Source: Gemmatimonadaceae bacterium (lineage in GTDB: Bacteria > Gemmatimonadota > Gemmatimonadetes > Gemmatimonadales > Gemmatimonadaceae). Taken from it: a stretch of DNA of 64,000 nucleotides. The DNA lies in assembly GCA_019752115.1 (NCBI GenBank), contig JAIEMN010000004.1, positions 124,001 through 188,000 of the forward strand. The letters are read 5' to 3'. Numbering within the stretch: the stretch's first letter is position 1; every line of letters begins with the position of its first letter. Positions 4,532 to 45,245 of this stretch are shown piece after piece. The notes below the pieces were generated by a model that searched no databases, had not been told where the DNA came from, and worked only from the letters and a program-made list of their open reading frames with translations. The position numbers and the translations under genes are program-made.

Positions 4532-7500
4532 CGCCGCATCGCTTCCGCCCGTTGCTGGCCGCCGTTGGCCTGCTGAGTGCACTGGCACTCGGTGGGCGGC
4601 CCGCGCACGCGCAGAACGGCCCGCGCCCGCAGACCCCGGCACCCGCCAGCGGTACGGCCGCGAAGGCCGTCAGCTCGGTGACGTCACCGCACGGTGCTAC
4701 CCTGCGCGAGGCGTGCGCGAGTTGCCACCGGGCAGACGGGTGGAAGCCGGCCCGCATCGCGCCGGACTTCAAGCACGCCGCCCAGACGTTCCCCCTCACC
4801 GGCGCGCACGTCCGCACGACGTGCATGAGCTGCCACAAGAGCCTCGACTTCCGCGGCGCGCAGACCTCGTGCGCGTCGTGCCACACCGATACGCACAACG
4901 GCGAGCTGGGCACCACCTGCCAGCGCTGCCACAACACGCGCAGCTTCGTCGATCGCGGCGCCGCGGTGCGGAGCCACGAAGGGTCCCGGTTCCCGCTGCG
5001 CGGTGCGCATGCCCTCGCGACGTGCGAGTCGTGCCATCAGCGCACGGCCCCCGGCCAGCAGCGCTTCCTCGCGCGCAGTGCGACCTGCGCGAGCTGCCAC
5101 ATGGACACGTATCAGGCGACCCGGAGCCCCGCGCACACGGCCGCCAAGTTCAGCACCGATTGCACGAACTGCCACACCATCAGCACGTGGACCGGGGCGA
5201 CGTTCGATCACAACACCACGACCTTCCCGCTCACCGGTCGCCACCTGATGACCACCTGCGCCGGCTGCCACGCCGACAAGGTGTTCACCGGCAAGTCCAA
5301 GGTGTGCAGCAGCTGTCACGCGCCGGATGCGGCCAAGGCCACCGCGCCCAAGCACGATGGCTTCTCCACGGCCTGCGAATCGTGCCATACGACGTCGGGA
5401 TGGCCCGGCGCCAAGTTCGACCATGATCGCATGACGAGCTTTGCGCTGACCGGGGGGCACCGTGCGGCCACCTGCGCGCAGTGTCACGCCGACAAGGTCT
5501 ACAAGGGGAAGCCCACCACCTGCGTGAGCTGCCATCAGACGGACTTCTCGAAGTCCATCAACCCCGACCACGCGGCCGCCAAGCTGCCGACCACCTGCGA
5601 GACGTGCCATACGACCGCGGTGTGGAAGGGCGCCAAGTACGACCACACGAAGACCAAGTTCCCGCTGACCGGCCAGCACGTCGCTGCCACCTGCCTCGCC
5701 TGCCACGCTGACAAGGTGTACGGCGGCAAGGCGATGGCCTGCGCGTCGTGCCACCAGAAGGACGCCACGGCGGCCCGGAACCCGGTGCACACCGGCTTCT
5801 CCACTGCGTGCGAAAGCTGCCACACGACCTCGGCCTGGCAGGGAGCGCGCTTCGACCACAACAGCAGCACGCGCTTTGCGCTCACCGGCGCGCACGAAGG
5901 CGCAAGCTGCGCGCAATGCCACAGCGACGGCGTCTTCAAGGGCAAGCCGATGGCGTGCGTGAGCTGCCATCAGGCCAAGTTCGACGCCGCCGTGAATCCG
6001 AACCATAAGGCGGCCGGCTATCCGACCACCTGCGAAGGCTGCCACAGCACCAGCGCCTGGAAGCCGGGGCTCTTCGATCACAACAGCACACGCTTCCCGC
6101 TCACGGGCGCGCACCTGGCCACGAGCTGCGCGCAGTGCCACGTGAACGGGGTCACGCGCGGCACGCCGATGACCTGCGTGAGCTGCCATCAGACGAAGTA
6201 CGACGCCTCCACGCAGCCGCACCACAAGGAAGCGCGCTTCGGCACCACGTGCGAAACGTGCCATACGACCAGCAAGTGGCTCGGCGCCCAGTGGAGCCAC
6301 AACACCCAGACCAAATTCCCGCTGCTCGGTCGGCACGTGGCGGCGGCGTGCCTCGCGTGCCATAGCGATCGCGTGTACGCCGGGAAGCCGAGCGTGTGCC
6401 AGAGCTGCCATCAGAAGGATGCCGATGCGGCGCTGACCCCGAGCCATCGGGGCTTCCCCACGACGTGCGAAACGTGTCACTCGGTGAATGGCTGGAAGCC
6501 GTCGAGCTTCAGCCATGACAACACGCGCTTCCCACTGCTCGGATCGCACCGCGCGGTATCGTGCGAGAGCTGCCACAAGAACGCGCAGTACGCCGGCACG
6601 CCCTCGAGCTGCGTGAACTGCCATCAGGCGAAGTACGACGCCACCACGAACCCCAATCACCGCGCGTCGAACTTCCCGACGACCTGTGGCGTGTGCCACA
6701 ACCCCACGTCGTGGAAGCCCGCGAGCTTCGATCACAACCTGACGCGCTTCCCGCTCACCGGCAGTCATCGCCCGGTGGCGTGCGAAAGCTGCCACAAGAA
6801 CGGGCAGTACACGGGCACGCCCACCGCGTGTGCGAGTTGCCATCAGGCCAAGTTCGACGCGACCACGAACCCGAACCACAAGACGGCCGGGTTCACCACC
6901 ACGTGTCAGCAGTGCCACACGACAACCGCGTGGACGCCGGCGACGTTCGATCACAACCTGACCAAGTTCCCGCTCACGGGGAGCCACAAGACGGTGACGT
7001 GTCTCGCCTGCCACAAGACGGGCACGTATACCGGCACGCCGAGCAGCTGCGCGAGCTGCCATCAGGCCAAGTTCGACGCGACCACGAATCCGAATCACAA
7101 GACGGCCGGGTTCCCGACCACGTGCCAGCAGTGCCACACGACGACGGCGTGGACGCCCGCCACCTTCGACCACAACACCACGGCGTTCCCGCTGACGGGG
7201 GCGCACCGGACCGTGGTGTGCCTCTCGTGCCACAAGAACGCGGTGTACGCCGGCACCCCGAAGGAATGCATCGGGTGTCATCAGGCCAGGTTCGACGCGA
7301 CCACGAATCCGAACCACAAGGCGGGCGGCTTCCCCACGGTCTGCCAGAGCTGCCATACGACGACCGCCTGGACGCCCTCGAGCTTTGACCACAACGCCAC
7401 CGCGTTCCCGCTCACGGGGCTGCACAAGACCACGAGCTGCCAGGGCTGCCACGGCGACGGCGTGTTCAAGGGCAAGACCACGCTGTGCAGCGGCTGTCAC

Positions 7501-27909: not shown

Positions 27910-28006
27910 GTACCTGATCTGCGGAGGGGCGGAGCATCGGGGCAACGGAGAACGGCGTAGGCGCGTCTCCGATGCTTCGAGGCTCCGCCCCTCCGCACGT
28001 CAGGCA
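27910..28006. repeat. REP-like inverted-repeat element, copy 1
   Basis: A ~97-bp element whose ends form a near-perfect inverted repeat (TGCGGAGGGGCGGAGC ... GCTCCGCCCCTCCGCA), extended by CCTGA ... TCAGG. Its sequence matches the reverse complement of the element at 35791-35888, including the flank GTACCTGATCTG and the inner CGGGGCA/CGGAG segments. It lies between two convergent genes and may act as a transcription terminator. Confidence 0.85.
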
Positions 28007-35672: not shown

Positions 35673-35790
35673 ACACTGCGGTGCGGTACCTTCTCGTTTG
35701 CCGGATCGCTGAACGGCGCTGCGGGGATCACGGGGAGGCCTGCGTGGGACGCTGGCAACGTGCCGACACTGAAAGATCGTTGTGACTGCT

Positions 35791-35888
35791 CTGCGGAGGG
35801 GCGGAGCATCGGAGCACTGGAGGTGTTCTCGCTTTCTTCGTTAACCACTCCGATGCCCCGTTGCTCCGCCCCTCGGCAGATCAGGTAC
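35791..35888. repeat. REP-like inverted-repeat element, copy 2
   Basis: A ~98-bp element with ends CTGCGGAGGGGCGGAGC and TTGCTCCGCCCCTCGGCAG, in the opposite orientation to copy 1 at 27910-28006. The outer flank on the right (GATCAGGTAC) is the reverse complement of copy 1's left flank. The inner loop differs. It occupies much of the 311-bp gap (35673-35983) between two plus-strand genes; the rest of that gap has no recognisable gene and should hold the promoter of the dehydratase. Confidence 0.85.
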
Positions 35889-35983: not shown

Positions 35984-37714
35984 ATGCCTCGCGAGTTCCG
36001 GTCAGCCAAGATCCACGAAGGGCTCCTGCGCGCCCCGACCTATGCGTTTCTGCAAGCGCTTGGGCAGAGCGACGACGAGATCCGGCGCCCGCATGTGGGC
36101 GTGTTTCACACCGGCGGCGAGATGAGCCCGTGCAACCTCGCGTTGCGGGAGCAGGCGCAGCACGCCAAGACGGGGGTGTATGCCCACGGGGGGATGCCCC
36201 ACGAATGCCCCGTGGTGAGTGTGAGCGATGGGCTCAGCGTGGCGCATCCCGGGATGCGCTACTCGCTGGTGAGCCGTGAGCTCATCGCCGACAGCGTCGA
36301 AGCGAGCACCGAAGCGCATCAGTGGGACGGCGTCTTTGCCATCGGCGGCTGCGACAAGAATCTCCCTGGGCTCATGATGGGGATCGTGCGCTGTAACGTG
36401 CCGGGCATCTTCGTGTATGGCGGGAGCACGTTGCCGGGCACGTACCAGGGGCGCGACACCCACATCGGCGAAACGTACGAAGCCGTGGGGCGCGTCCTCG
36501 CCGGCGAAACCACGATCGACGAAGTCACGGCGCGCGCGCGGAGCTGCATTCCCACCGCCGGCGCGTGCGCGGGGCAGTTCACGGCAAATACCATGGGCAT
36601 GGTCGGCGAAGCGCTGGGGCTGTCGCCCATCGGCTCGAGTATGATTCCCGCCGTCTACAGCGAGCGCGCGCCGATGTTGCGTCGCGCCGCGGCGGTGCTG
36701 ATGCAGGCGGTCATGGCCGATGCCCCGCGGCCGCGCGACATCGTCACCCGCGCGGCGCTCGAGAACGCCTGCGCGGTGGTCAGTGCGACCGGCGGCTCCA
36801 CCAACGCCGCGCTCCACCTCCCGGCGATCGCCCACGAAGCCGGCGTGCCCTTCACGCTCGACGACGTTGCCGCGGTCTTTGCCCGCACGCCGTTGCTCGC
36901 CGACCTGCAGCCCGGTGGCCAGTACCTGGCGCGTGACCTGCACCACGCCGGCGGCACCGGCATCGTGCTCAAGGCACTCCTCGACGCCGGGTTTCTGCAC
37001 GGCGAGGCGCTTACGATCACCGGGCGCACGATGGCGGACGAGCTGGCGCCGGTGGCGGCCCCCGATGGGGCGGTGGTGCGCACCGCCAGCAACGCGCGCA
37101 GCCGCGACGGTGGCGTCACCGTCCTCACCGGCAACCTCTGTCCCGCCGGTGCGCTGCTCAAGACCGCCGGACTCGCCACGCTCACACACACCGGGCCCGC
37201 GCGCGTCTTCGAGAGCGAGGAGCAGGCGCTTGAAGCGGTCCGCGTGCGGCGCTACGCCCTCGGCGACGTGATCGTGATTCGCAATGAAGGCCCCAAGGGC
37301 GGCCCCGGCATGCGCGAAATGCTCGGCATCACCGCGCTCCTCTACGGCCAGGGGGTCGGCCAGCAGGTCGCGCTGCTTACGGACGGCCGCTTCAGCGGCG
37401 CCACGCGAGGCCTGTGCATCGGGCACGCGGGCCCGGAGGCGGCCGACCGCGGCCCCATCGCCGCGCTCCGCGACGGGGACACGATCACGATCGACGCCAC
37501 GCCCGGCGCGCGGCGGATCAGCGTCGCCCTCACCGACGCCGAGCTCACGCGGCGGCTGGCCGCGCTCCCACCCTTTGTGCCCAGCGTGAAAGGCGGGCTG
37601 CTGGAGAAGTACGCAAAGCTGGTAGGGCCGGCGAATGAGGGCGCGGTGACGCACAGTGGCACACGCCGATTCCAACCCACAACCCAGAACCAAGAGCCCG
37701 AAACCCTAAACTGA
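35984..37714 (+). CDS. IlvD/Edd-family dehydratase (dihydroxy-acid or sugar-acid dehydratase)
   Basis: A 576-residue Fe-S dehydratase. The three cluster cysteines are Cys50 (MSPCN), Cys123 (GGCDKN) and Cys195 (TAGACAGQ), as in dihydroxy-acid dehydratase. Further family motifs include SGATRG and RNEGPKGGPGM. The enzyme removes water from a 2,3-dihydroxy acid to give a 2-keto acid. By sequence alone it could be IlvD (branched-chain amino acids) or an L-arabonate/xylonate-type dehydratase; the neighbouring SDR and hydroxyacid dehydrogenase slightly favour the latter. The last 15 codons lie inside the left arm of a large imperfect palindrome, so the C-terminal tail (RFQPTTQNQEPETLN) looks like recently read-through non-coding DNA. 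Confidence 0.88.
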   Translation: MPREFRSAKIHEGLLRAPTYAFLQALGQSDDEIRRPHVGVFHTGGEMSPCNLALREQAQHAKTGVYAHGGMPHECPVVSVSDGLSVAHPGMRYSLVSRELIADSVEASTEAHQWDGVFAIGGCDKNLPGLMMGIVRCNVPGIFVYGGSTLPGTYQGRDTHIGETYEAVGRVLAGETTIDEVTARARSCIPTAGACAGQFTANTMGMVGEALGLSPIGSSMIPAVYSERAPMLRRAAAVLMQAVMADAPRPRDIVTRAALENACAVVSATGGSTNAALHLPAIAHEAGVPFTLDDVAAVFARTPLLADLQPGGQYLARDLHHAGGTGIVLKALLDAGFLHGEALTITGRTMADELAPVAAPDGAVVRTASNARSRDGGVTVLTGNLCPAGALLKTAGLATLTHTGPARVFESEEQALEAVRVRRYALGDVIVIRNEGPKGGPGMREMLGITALLYGQGVGQQVALLTDGRFSGATRGLCIGHAGPEAADRGPIAALRDGDTITIDATPGARRISVALTDAELTRRLAALPPFVPSVKGGLLEKYAKLVGPANEGAVTHSGTRRFQPTTQNQEPETLN

Positions 37715-37754
37715 TCGGTTCTGGGTTTCGGGTTCTTGGTCGTGGATTGTGGGT
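37675..37754. terminator. 80-bp imperfect palindrome at convergent gene ends
   Basis: Two 40-nt arms without a spacer, pairing at 33 of 40 positions. The dehydratase TGA stop (37712-37714) is at the inner end of the left arm; the minus-strand neighbour ends 13 bp beyond the right arm. Its style (AACCC / CTAAACTGATC at the centre) resembles the perfect palindrome at 44639-44726. A bidirectional terminator is the simplest role. Confidence 0.75.
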
Positions 37755-43567: not shown

Positions 43568-44641
43568 ATGTTCCGTCGTAGCCCCGTCGCCGCCGCCCTG
43601 CTGCTGGCGAGCGCCTGCACCATTCAGAGCACCCCCGGAGCCGCGTCCTACTCGCAGCTCCCGTCCACTGGCATGCGGTCCGGCAGCATGGGCGGCATGG
43701 AGATGCGCGGCATGGACGACCACAGTGCGCACATGCGCGCCGAGGATCTCAAGTCGCCCACGCTCGGCCGCTATGCCACCGTGCAAGACCTGTCGCTGCC
43801 AGCCAGCAACAACGCGGCGCCCGATCGACTCAAGGCGAGCAACCGCCACAGCGAATGGGTGAAGTTCCCCGTGGCGCCGGGCTCCAAGGATTCGGTGATG
43901 GCGTGGGTGGTCTTCCCGTTCAGCAAGACCTCCACGCAGAAGGCACCGGTCGTGGTGGTGGTGCACGAGATCTTCGGACTCTCCACGTGGGTGCGCGGCG
44001 TGGCGGACCAGGCGGCGGCCGATGGGTTCATCGCGATCGCCCCGGACTTCCTGTCGCGCGTCCGCGGTGGCCCGACGACGGTGGAGCTGGCGGCGGATTC
44101 CGCGCGCAAGATCATCGCCGGCGTCAACACGACCGAGCGCAATGCCATCATCAGTGCGGCGGCGAACTACGCCATGATGCTGCCGAGTGCACAGCAGAAG
44201 TACGCGGTCATCGGCTACTGCTGGGGCGGACAGACGGTGTGGGCCCACGCCGTCAACGGGGGCGTGAAGGGCTATAGCGGTGGCGTCGCCTTCTACGGCG
44301 CGCCGTACACCAAGGCTGGCCAGCCGGCCACGGCCACCACGGCCGCCGTACCGGCTACGGTGGACGGGGATTCGCTGCAGAAGATCAGCAAGCCGGTGAT
44401 GCTGCTCAACGGCTCGAAGGACGCCCGCATCGGCGCCCTGATGCCCGCGATCGACTCGGCGATGAAGGCCCTCAAGAAGGACTACGCCGGCACCAACTAC
44501 GAAGGCGCCGTGCACGGCTTCCTGCGCGCGCAGAACGATCCCAAGGCGCAGCGTGACGAAGCGGAAGAAGCCGCGAACTACGCGGCGACAAAGGATGGGT
44601 GGCCGAAGACGGTGGCGTTCTTGAAGCGGGTACTGAAGTAA
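43568..44641 (+). CDS. Dienelactone hydrolase family lipoprotein
   Basis: A 357-residue protein; ATG 43568 begins a lipoprotein signal with lipobox ASAC (Cys near residue 18). A Met/Gly/Ser-rich linker (SMGGMEMRGMDDHSAHM) runs to about residue 60. The alpha/beta-hydrolase domain shows the dienelactone hydrolase pattern: HEIFGL, the nucleophile elbow GYCWGG with cysteine as nucleophile, the acid Asp in GSKDARIG and the His in AVHGFLR. Members cleave lactones or esters; the substrate is unknown. The His/Met-rich linker might bind a metal. Its stop codon opens the perfect palindrome. Confidence 0.88.
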   Translation: MFRRSPVAAALLLASACTIQSTPGAASYSQLPSTGMRSGSMGGMEMRGMDDHSAHMRAEDLKSPTLGRYATVQDLSLPASNNAAPDRLKASNRHSEWVKFPVAPGSKDSVMAWVVFPFSKTSTQKAPVVVVVHEIFGLSTWVRGVADQAAADGFIAIAPDFLSRVRGGPTTVELAADSARKIIAGVNTTERNAIISAAANYAMMLPSAQQKYAVIGYCWGGQTVWAHAVNGGVKGYSGGVAFYGAPYTKAGQPATATTAAVPATVDGDSLQKISKPVMLLNGSKDARIGALMPAIDSAMKALKKDYAGTNYEGAVHGFLRAQNDPKAQRDEAEEAANYAATKDGWPKTVAFLKRVLK

Positions 44642-44726
44642 CCCGGCAACCCCAAACCCTAAAACACCAAACCCCAAACTGATCAGTTTGGGGTTTGGTG
44701 TTTTAGGGTTTGGGGTTGCCGGGTTA
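44639..44726. terminator. Perfect 88-bp palindrome between convergent genes
   Basis: Two perfectly complementary 44-nt arms with no spacer; the centre is CTGATCAG (44679-44686). The left end is exactly the TAA stop of the hydrolase gene (44639-44641) and the right end exactly the TAA stop of the Lrp/AsnC gene on the other strand (44724-44726). It is made of C/A-rich strings such as AACCCCAAACCCTAAAAC, unlike the surrounding GC-rich DNA. It probably acts as a bidirectional terminator. Confidence 0.9.
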
Positions 44727-45140
44727 TTTGTGCGTACTCAGCAGCAAACTCGTCTCCGTATTCGCCACCCCCTTCACCTTTCCGATCTGCCGCAGCACTT
44801 CGTCGAACTCCTGCAGCGTGTCGGTGGCGAGTTCGGCGACGATGTCCCAGCGTCCGTTGGTCGTGTGCAGCGCGCGGACCGCGGGGTAGCCGCGGATGGT
44901 GCGCAGCACCACGTCGGCATCGCCTTCGGTGCGAATGGTCGTGATGGCGCGAATGCGGTGGGCGCCGGCTTCGGCGGCGGTCTTCACGGTGAAGCCCAGC
45001 AGCACCCGCTGCTCCACGAGACGGTCGATGCGGTTCTGCACCGTGCCCCGCGACACGCCGAGCTGCTTGGCCAGCGTGGCCACGCTCAGGCGCGCGTTCT
45101 CGCGCAGCAGGGAGACCAGCCGTACGTCCAAAGCGTCCAT
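44724..45140 (-). CDS. Lrp/AsnC-family transcriptional regulator
   Basis: A 138-residue regulator from ATG 45140 (a TTG at 45149 would add three residues). It has an N-terminal winged HTH (about 1-60: MDALDVRLVSLLRENARLS, then VSRGTVQNRIDRL) and a C-terminal RAM/AsnC ligand domain (about 65-138, with GRWDIVAELATD). Family members sense amino acids and often control adjacent catabolic genes. It is divergent from arginase and ornithine aminotransferase with a 105-bp intergenic region, so control by arginine or ornithine is likely. Confidence 0.9.
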   Translation of the reverse strand: MDALDVRLVSLLRENARLSVATLAKQLGVSRGTVQNRIDRLVEQRVLLGFTVKTAAEAGAHRIRAITTIRTEGDADVVLRTIRGYPAVRALHTTNGRWDIVAELATDTLQEFDEVLRQIGKVKGVANTETSLLLSTHK

Positions 45141-45245
45141 GGTGCGCAATATGACACTTTTGCCTGACTTTTTGCTAGATAGATCGCGCAGTTCTGTGCA
45201 CTGATTGATCTTGTTGCTGGCATCGGTCGTGCCGATCCTTGAGGC
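45141..45245. promoter_or_regulatory. Divergent promoter region of the Lrp/AsnC gene and rocF
   Basis: A 105-bp region clearly more AT-rich than its surroundings, with two T-rich direct repeats (ACACTTTTGCC and TGACTTTTTGC, 45154-45176) and a nearby TAGATAGAT. Lrp-family operators are AT-rich and degenerate, so this is the expected place for binding sites, but no exact operator can be assigned. Confidence 0.4.

Follow-up and report, generated by a model that had tools for sequence, protein, structure and literature searches.

A perfect palindrome between convergent stop codons in Gemmatimonas belongs to a dispersed family at gene ends and may serve as a two-way 3' hairpin

The window, that is, the whole stretch of 64,000 nt analysed here, contains a perfect 88-bp palindrome that is one copy of a dispersed repeat family, named F1. 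The family has many copies in the genome, a fixed core at the dyad, G/T-rich arms built in heptads, a position at stop codons and arms that covary. It is restricted to one genus and patchy within it, and it occupies sites that in relatives carry terminator-type hairpins or different palindromes. We believe, with somewhat better than even confidence, that the window palindrome is a copy of a REP-like 3'-end family of Gemmatimonas, which acts as a shared two-way 3' hairpin or terminator and was spread by copying. A long perfect palindrome should be unstable. Here, dozens of palindromes per genome keep their complementarity and their link to stop codons in the absence of the transposase that is thought to spread the best-studied REPs. 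Because orthologous gene ends have a plain terminator-type hairpin, or a palindrome of one or another family, the origin, turnover and effect of these elements are testable by comparison.

The features at the palindrome are as follows.
43568..44641, + strand: dienelactone hydrolase family gene (PF01738), stop codon within the palindrome, start approximate
44639..44726, no strand: perfect palindrome without spacer, head-to-head copy of family F1 (subfamily A), with both flanking stop codons inside
44639..44682, - strand: left half element, A/C-rich on the + strand, G/T-rich heptads on the - strand
44677..44688, no strand: dyad core AACTGATCAGTT, present genome-wide in 48 exact copies
44683..44726, + strand: right half element, G/T-rich heptads on the + strand
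44724..45140, - strand: Lrp/AsnC-type regulator gene (PF01037, PF13404), stop within the palindrome, start approximate (TTG at 45149 as alternative)

Structure of the palindrome and of its family

The preliminary description had reported a perfect 88-bp palindrome without spacer, from stop to stop of two convergent genes, and reading of the sequence and an inverted-repeat search bear this out. All 44 arm positions of 44639-44726 are paired with a spacer of 0, and the symmetry centre is the dyad between TGA and TCA; the search returned the arms 44636-44682 and 44683-44729 (98% complementary, no spacer). The left end is the TAA (44639-44641) of the plus-strand hydrolase gene, and the right end is the TTA (44724-44726), the TAA stop of the convergent minus-strand Lrp/AsnC-type gene. 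The palindrome therefore occupies the gap from stop to stop and leaves no space for another terminator there. The left arm has A or C at 38 of 44 bases. The G+C content is 0.50, compared with 0.675 for the window; the sequence is thus foreign to its surroundings as had been claimed, but the composition is that of a resident repeat family and not of a single foreign insert.

The RNA hairpin predicted for the two strands has -85.1 and -82.8 kcal/mol, respectively, whereas shuffles have approximately -29 kcal/mol. The fold of -85.1 kcal/mol is far above chance, and 0 of 200 shuffles were as good. The terminator scan gave no match at the palindrome, where TTTGTG, not a U-tract, directly follows the hairpin. 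In the Rfam scan of 26-47 kb, all matches were far under the gathering scores, and nearly all were miRNA hairpins; we rejected these as the generic likeness of any long stem.

The genome assembly is a draft of 5.17 Mb in 83 contigs, and a search of it with the 88 bp as query yielded 84 strand-wise matches. The core AACTGATCAGTT occurs 48 times, with 0 occurrences of the reversed-pattern control, and all 48 cores carry at least one G/T-rich half element, as judged by reading and by a half-element profile scan. These cores form 36 head-to-head palindromes, of which 32 are good (at least 30 of 44 pairs) and four are poorer or broken (L031, L047, L067, L074). Seven cores are in inside-out pairs with the core outside (L030, L036, L046, L051, L063 twice, L066), and five belong to single halves (L029, L042, L043, L060, L071). 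A covariance model built from 20 subfamily-B copies found 104 strand-wise matches at E <=0.01, which means somewhat more than 50 places because most of the listed places score on both strands.

The half element consists of TCAGTT followed by a G/T-rich stretch of approximately 35 nt that has a 7-nt period, and the heptamer unit is GGGTTnn. The lag-7 self-identity of the 64 halves of the 32 head-to-head copies was 0.62, compared with 0.37 after shuffling. There are two subfamilies, A (12 copies, including the window copy) and B (20 copies), with no mixing within any locus. Single halves fold poorly (mean -5.5 kcal/mol, against -65.4 kcal/mol for whole elements). A T-run of 4 is inside the stem in 36 of 64 halves. 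At the 64 outer ends, GTAG was found inward in 8 and outward in 2, and CGTC inward in 6 and outward in 4; the GTAG there may be TAG stop codons. L031 (approximately 1500-1520) has a partial doubling of the core (AACTGATCAGTTACTGATCAGTT), which looks like a joining or slippage of two cores. A test for carriage by phages gave 2 F1 matches in viral contigs, a number compatible with chance.

The copies differ among themselves, yet both arms of one copy remain complementary. In the 32 head-to-head copies, the arm identity outside the core was 0.873 at the same locus and 0.802 after re-pairing within the subfamily (best of 2000 permutations, 0.832). This excess indicates that the pairing is maintained in F1. 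The alignment of subfamily B has 42 cells with two-sided changes, and 0 of 500 shuffles were as high, a control that related sequences can inflate; sliding the partner by 1-3 columns also abolishes the signal. In only 10 of 32 loci is the arm's own partner strictly its closest match; the coupling is thus real, though not extreme. The number of mismatches per 40 nt ranges from 0 to 12, with 0 in 2 of 32 copies and 1 in 4 of 32. The perfection of the window copy had been taken to suggest recent origin or selection. The upkeep of pairing agrees with this, but perfection itself is just the tail of the distribution, to which the window copy is no exception.

Gene ends in the genome and in its relatives

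All gene borders come from a codon-usage gene caller and are approximate. In codirectional pairs, 17 of 18 head-to-head copies are nearer the stop. The dyad lies within 50 nt of the stop, i.e., at or inside the arm edge, in 35 of 42 stop distances, a count that leaves out 2 of the 32 copies because they are in apparently divergent pairs. A search for similar palindromes at other convergent gene pairs, proposed in the preliminary description, was positive. In 464 kb, inverted repeats with long arms, of any family, are present in 14 of the 55 convergent gene pairs, in 11 of the 235 codirectional ones and in 1 of the 55 divergent ones. When gaps of 40-450 nt between convergent genes were examined (arms of at least 20 nt, loops up to 150 nt), an inverted repeat was found in 16/28 gaps of the sample from the genome itself, 9/31 of G068 and 8/33 of G021; the smaller samples gave 1/3 (G006), 3/4 (G004), 1/3 (G005), 0/6 (G013), 0/1 (G001) and 0/1 (G010), and the shuffled gaps of all nine genomes gave 0/330. 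Classical terminator-type hairpins adjoin some F1 copies (L074, L077), and classical terminators were found in 0/14 of the gaps that hold a palindrome versus 2/15 (P 0.48).

The convergent hydrolase and regulator genes are also adjacent in G013. The F1 palindrome is absent from this gap, which contains a 17-bp GC-rich hairpin with a T run, an intrinsic-type terminator. In G006 and G009 there is a short GC-rich hairpin after the hydrolase stop, and the regulator gene is 1.3-1.6 kb further.

Of 298 genomes sampled across the phylum, 6 contain the pattern of core plus GGGTT, and all 6 belong to the window's genus. The public genome collection has 59 matching stretches. Of these, 46 are titled Gemmatimonas, Gemmatimonadaceae or Gemmatimonadetes, or come from one untitled bacterium (5 stretches, similar copies), and unrelated taxa account for the other 13, each a single match, a number within chance by our own estimate. 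The core was the search key in the genome, phylum-sample and public-collection searches, which favours core-bearing copies. By the covariance model, the strand-wise matches are 104 in the genome itself, 98 in G022, 83 in G001, 73 in G068, 21-31 in six genomes, 2 in G013 and 0 in G021, so G021 lives without the family.

Some gene ends with F1 are shared between species. In the relative GBBB08, 7 of 28 cores share their gene end with one of the 48 cores, compared with an expectation of approximately 0.8 (P ~2e-5), which is crude because it assumes that approximately 1660 eligible ends are equally likely. In the other genomes, 3 of 23 cores are at shared ends. The arrangement differs at some of these ends (L046, L051, L043). 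The core is invariant across species, while the arms change: the four valid pairs of arms at shared gene ends have identities of 0.40, 0.50, 0.49 and 0.51, against a background of 0.48. Of the seven pairs considered for arm memory, these four passed the same-gene-end test; L058-L094 and L070-L021 are different ends, and L065-L109 is not in the same-gene-end list (49% identity, below the threshold). A locus memory of the arms between species was rejected (orthologous 0.479, non-orthologous 0.484).

Relatives differ at what occupies one gene end. At the end of L049, the single-contig genome G068 (4.7 Mb) has an F1 palindrome as well, and G013 has a palindrome with 50-nt arms of another family. 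In G005 and G016 a terminator-like hairpin is flanked by inverted arms of low complexity, which were read by eye and were missed by the ungapped search. At the position of the F1 element of L150, short GC-rich hairpins are present in G001, G004, G021 and G022.

A second F1 copy in the window lies at the end of a coding sequence.
35984..37714, + strand: ilvD/edd-type dehydratase gene, final codons and stop read from the element at 37675-37754
37675..37754, no strand: further F1 member, imperfect, with 1 mismatch in the core (37709-37720), which supplies the TGA stop of the upstream gene

In G013, G004 and G006 the match to the homologues stops before the tail encoded by the element, and there is no such palindrome there. 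At least here, the element was thus gained at the end of a coding sequence. At the same place in G001, an F1-type element is split by an IS. This IS (L230, approximately 5103-6415) encodes a DDE_Tnp_1/DUF4372 transposase, has the ends CAGGCGTGTCCGGT and lies inside the F1-type element, with a 10-nt direct repeat ACTCAAGACT at the insertion, read by eye. The same IS end breaks F1 elements at L074 (approximately 2014) in the window's genome and at L127 (approximately 6245) in GBBB08. As it lies inside F1 elements of three genomes, this IS seems to target F1 palindromes; REPs are reportedly hit by IS elements as well (PMC1525189).

Function, spread and published relatives

In our preferred reading, a transcript arriving from either side of the window palindrome would fold into a hairpin of approximately 44 bp directly after the stop codon. 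This hairpin would be a shared two-way 3' end, that is, a terminator and/or a barrier to 3' exonucleases, and we infer termination or RNA protection as the role of F1 hairpins in general. F1 would have spread via a copying process, apparently independent of RAYT, and the complementarity of the arms would be upheld either by selection for hairpin formation or by correction of one arm from the other through template switching. This reading is favoured by the many copies in the genome, their closeness to stops, the covariation of the arms, the stop-to-stop position of the window copy, and the terminator-type hairpins at some orthologous ends, including the same gene pair in G013. It is weakened because there is no U-tract at the window copy, because terminator-type hairpins lie beside some copies and because the wobbles in the mismatches have no sense-RNA bias (29 sense-strand and 23 antisense-strand wobbles, P 0.49). 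The existence of G021 without F1 weakens it further.

It is rather unlikely, in our opinion, that F1 is a purely selfish REPIN-like repeat without host function, for which gene ends are the least harmful insertion sites and the hairpin serves its own single-strand copying. The patchy copy number in one genus (0-104 strand-wise matches), the insertion that displaced the stop of the ilvD/edd-type gene, and the solo, head-to-head and inside-out arrangements are all consistent with such a repeat, as are the classical terminators adjoining some copies and the missing sense-strand bias. However, the Y1 transposase (Y1_Tnp; RAYT, PF01797) was not found in the four richest carriers (G000, G068, G001, G022); single RAYT-type genes (PF01797) are present in G006, G009, G018, G016 and G005. 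The half profile found no autonomous copy within 2 kb of the 48 cores. As to the target-site duplication of MITEs, 0 of 62 related palindromes, all of families other than F1, are abutted by direct repeats of 3-10 nt. The sharing of gene ends between species above chance (7/28) also argues against a purely selfish repeat.

A site acting at the level of DNA, with RNA uninvolved, is improbable. The core AACTGATCAGTT would be bound by a protein, or the arms would act on the chromosome as a cruciform or G-quadruplex. The invariance of the core among varying arms and the lack of RNA-strand bias fit this proposal, but the core served as search key, so that core-bearing copies were favoured. Similarly, 52 of 64 halves have four G-runs with loops up to 12 nt, but the strict G-quadruplex fit (loops up to 7 nt) was found in just 9 of 64. 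The close association of F1 with stop codons and convergent pairs speaks for a role of transcription. We consider it highly improbable that a recent template-switch inverted duplication of a half element made this perfect copy: the perfect symmetry without spacer and the existence of single halves and poorer palindromes would suit such an event, but the graded series of head-to-head copies (0-12 mismatches per 40 nt) needs no special event. The assembly or library artefact raised as a possibility in the preliminary description has almost negligible probability, because, although the genome is a draft and some F1 copies are near contig ends, the arms are unequal in most copies and the family is found in several independent assemblies, including the single-contig genome at an orthologous gene end.

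Among published systems, F1 is closest to REPs/REPINs and to the inverted G-rich heptamers described in Xanthomonas. According to PMC3733652, REPs mostly adjoin gene 3' ends, the stop codon sometimes comes from the repeat, and CGTC-type REPs have no dedicated transposase. As described in PMC3733652 and PMC3116915, REPs, REPINs and BIMEs resemble F1 as dispersed extragenic palindromes that form inverted doublets in both arrangements and singlets, lie mostly at 3' gene ends, at times supply the stop codon and have compensatory changes. In contrast to REPs/REPINs, a GTAG or CGTC tag at the unit end is not the rule in F1, a single unit is no self-folding stem-loop of 20-40 nt, the arms are approximately 40 nt with a 7-nt period and often no spacer, and the richest carriers lack a RAYT-type transposase, which CGTC-type REPs do not require either.

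The inverted G-rich heptamers of Xanthomonas and Nostoc (PMC4692102) have the unit GGGAATC, and transcripts tend to start or stop there. The likeness to F1 includes tandem G-rich 7-nt units in inverted pairs, with approximately 4-5 units per arm, a bias to positions behind or over the stop codon, rarity between divergent genes, and the same gene context with varying sequence in relatives. F1 differs from what is described there in its GGGTTnn unit, the fixed dyad core AACTGATCAGTT, spacer-free perfect palindromes and the presence of several unrelated families in one genome. The TAACTGA heptamer repeats are described in PMC4679880 as direct, abundant in intergenic regions, patchy and mostly just upstream of start codons. 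They share with F1 the patchy intergenic 7-nt units, and their letters recall the AACTGA of the core as well as the AACTGAC-type arms of G068; they differ from F1 in being direct rather than inverted and in their usual place before start codons. The window copy resembles bidirectional intrinsic terminators in that its hairpin directly follows convergent stops, where a relative has a terminator-type hairpin. It differs from them in its stem of approximately 44 bp, its 50% G+C, the lack of an immediate U-tract and its membership in a repeat family rather than among unique sequences. No description of F1 was found in the literature on Gemmatimonas/Gemmatimonadetes and convergent-gene palindromes that was covered, many subscription journals being outside the coverage.

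Other palindrome families at gene ends

Two further inverted repeats of the window belong to another family, F5.
27913..28004, no strand: long inverted repeat, family F5, between convergent genes
35786..35884, no strand: another F5-type inverted repeat, between codirectional genes

A search that did not rely on homology detected 27 strong inverted repeats in 464 kb of the genome itself, all outside called genes; in samples of 400 kb each, G068 had 13 and G021 had 4. They represent several unrelated families. One family of 105-nt palindromes (e.g., L156:12491-12595 and L148:6871-6975) has approximately 40 places in this genome and 0 in 9 relatives of the genus, and another non-F1 family has approximately 13 places. 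In codirectional pairs, 25 of 29 non-F1 palindromes are nearer the stop. By our own rule, a T-tract terminator is present in the loop of 5 of 15 repeats with loops longer than 30 nt (this genome, G068 and G021).

We tentatively propose, at somewhat less than an even chance, that the 3'-end inverted repeats of Gemmatimonas keep their place and not their sequence. Arms of short period would grow or land around terminators, in arm dialects and families specific to the species, and both arms would be replaced together; the spacer-free AACTGATCAGTT form would then be a terminator swallowed by its arms. If true, this would be a new RAYT-independent way to make and renew gene-end palindromes.

At the outer ends of other families, the boundary GAACTGATC was found with up to 2 mismatches in 18 of 71 cases, compared with approximately 5% expected for a motif that was chosen post hoc. 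AAC is at the outer end in 26 of 62 cases versus 13%, and the arms are AAC-rich internally too (15 of 62 in one inner window). In L142:12304-12418, L147:2528-2627 and L234:2831-2966, members of other families are bounded at their outer ends by AACTGATC/GATCAGTT, which is the F1 core split; these ends are possibly a common boundary or joining signal. G021 has a family of its own (L186, L192, L194; e.g., L192:9819-9999), with inverted arms of 40-50 nt (AACAGCGGGGGGAACACAGAC...) around terminator-like hairpins between convergent genes. Arms of the AACTGAC type are present in G068. At L145:15808-15986, inverted arms of a repeated GCGCATACGT-type unit lie behind a gene and represent a further family of the window's genome.
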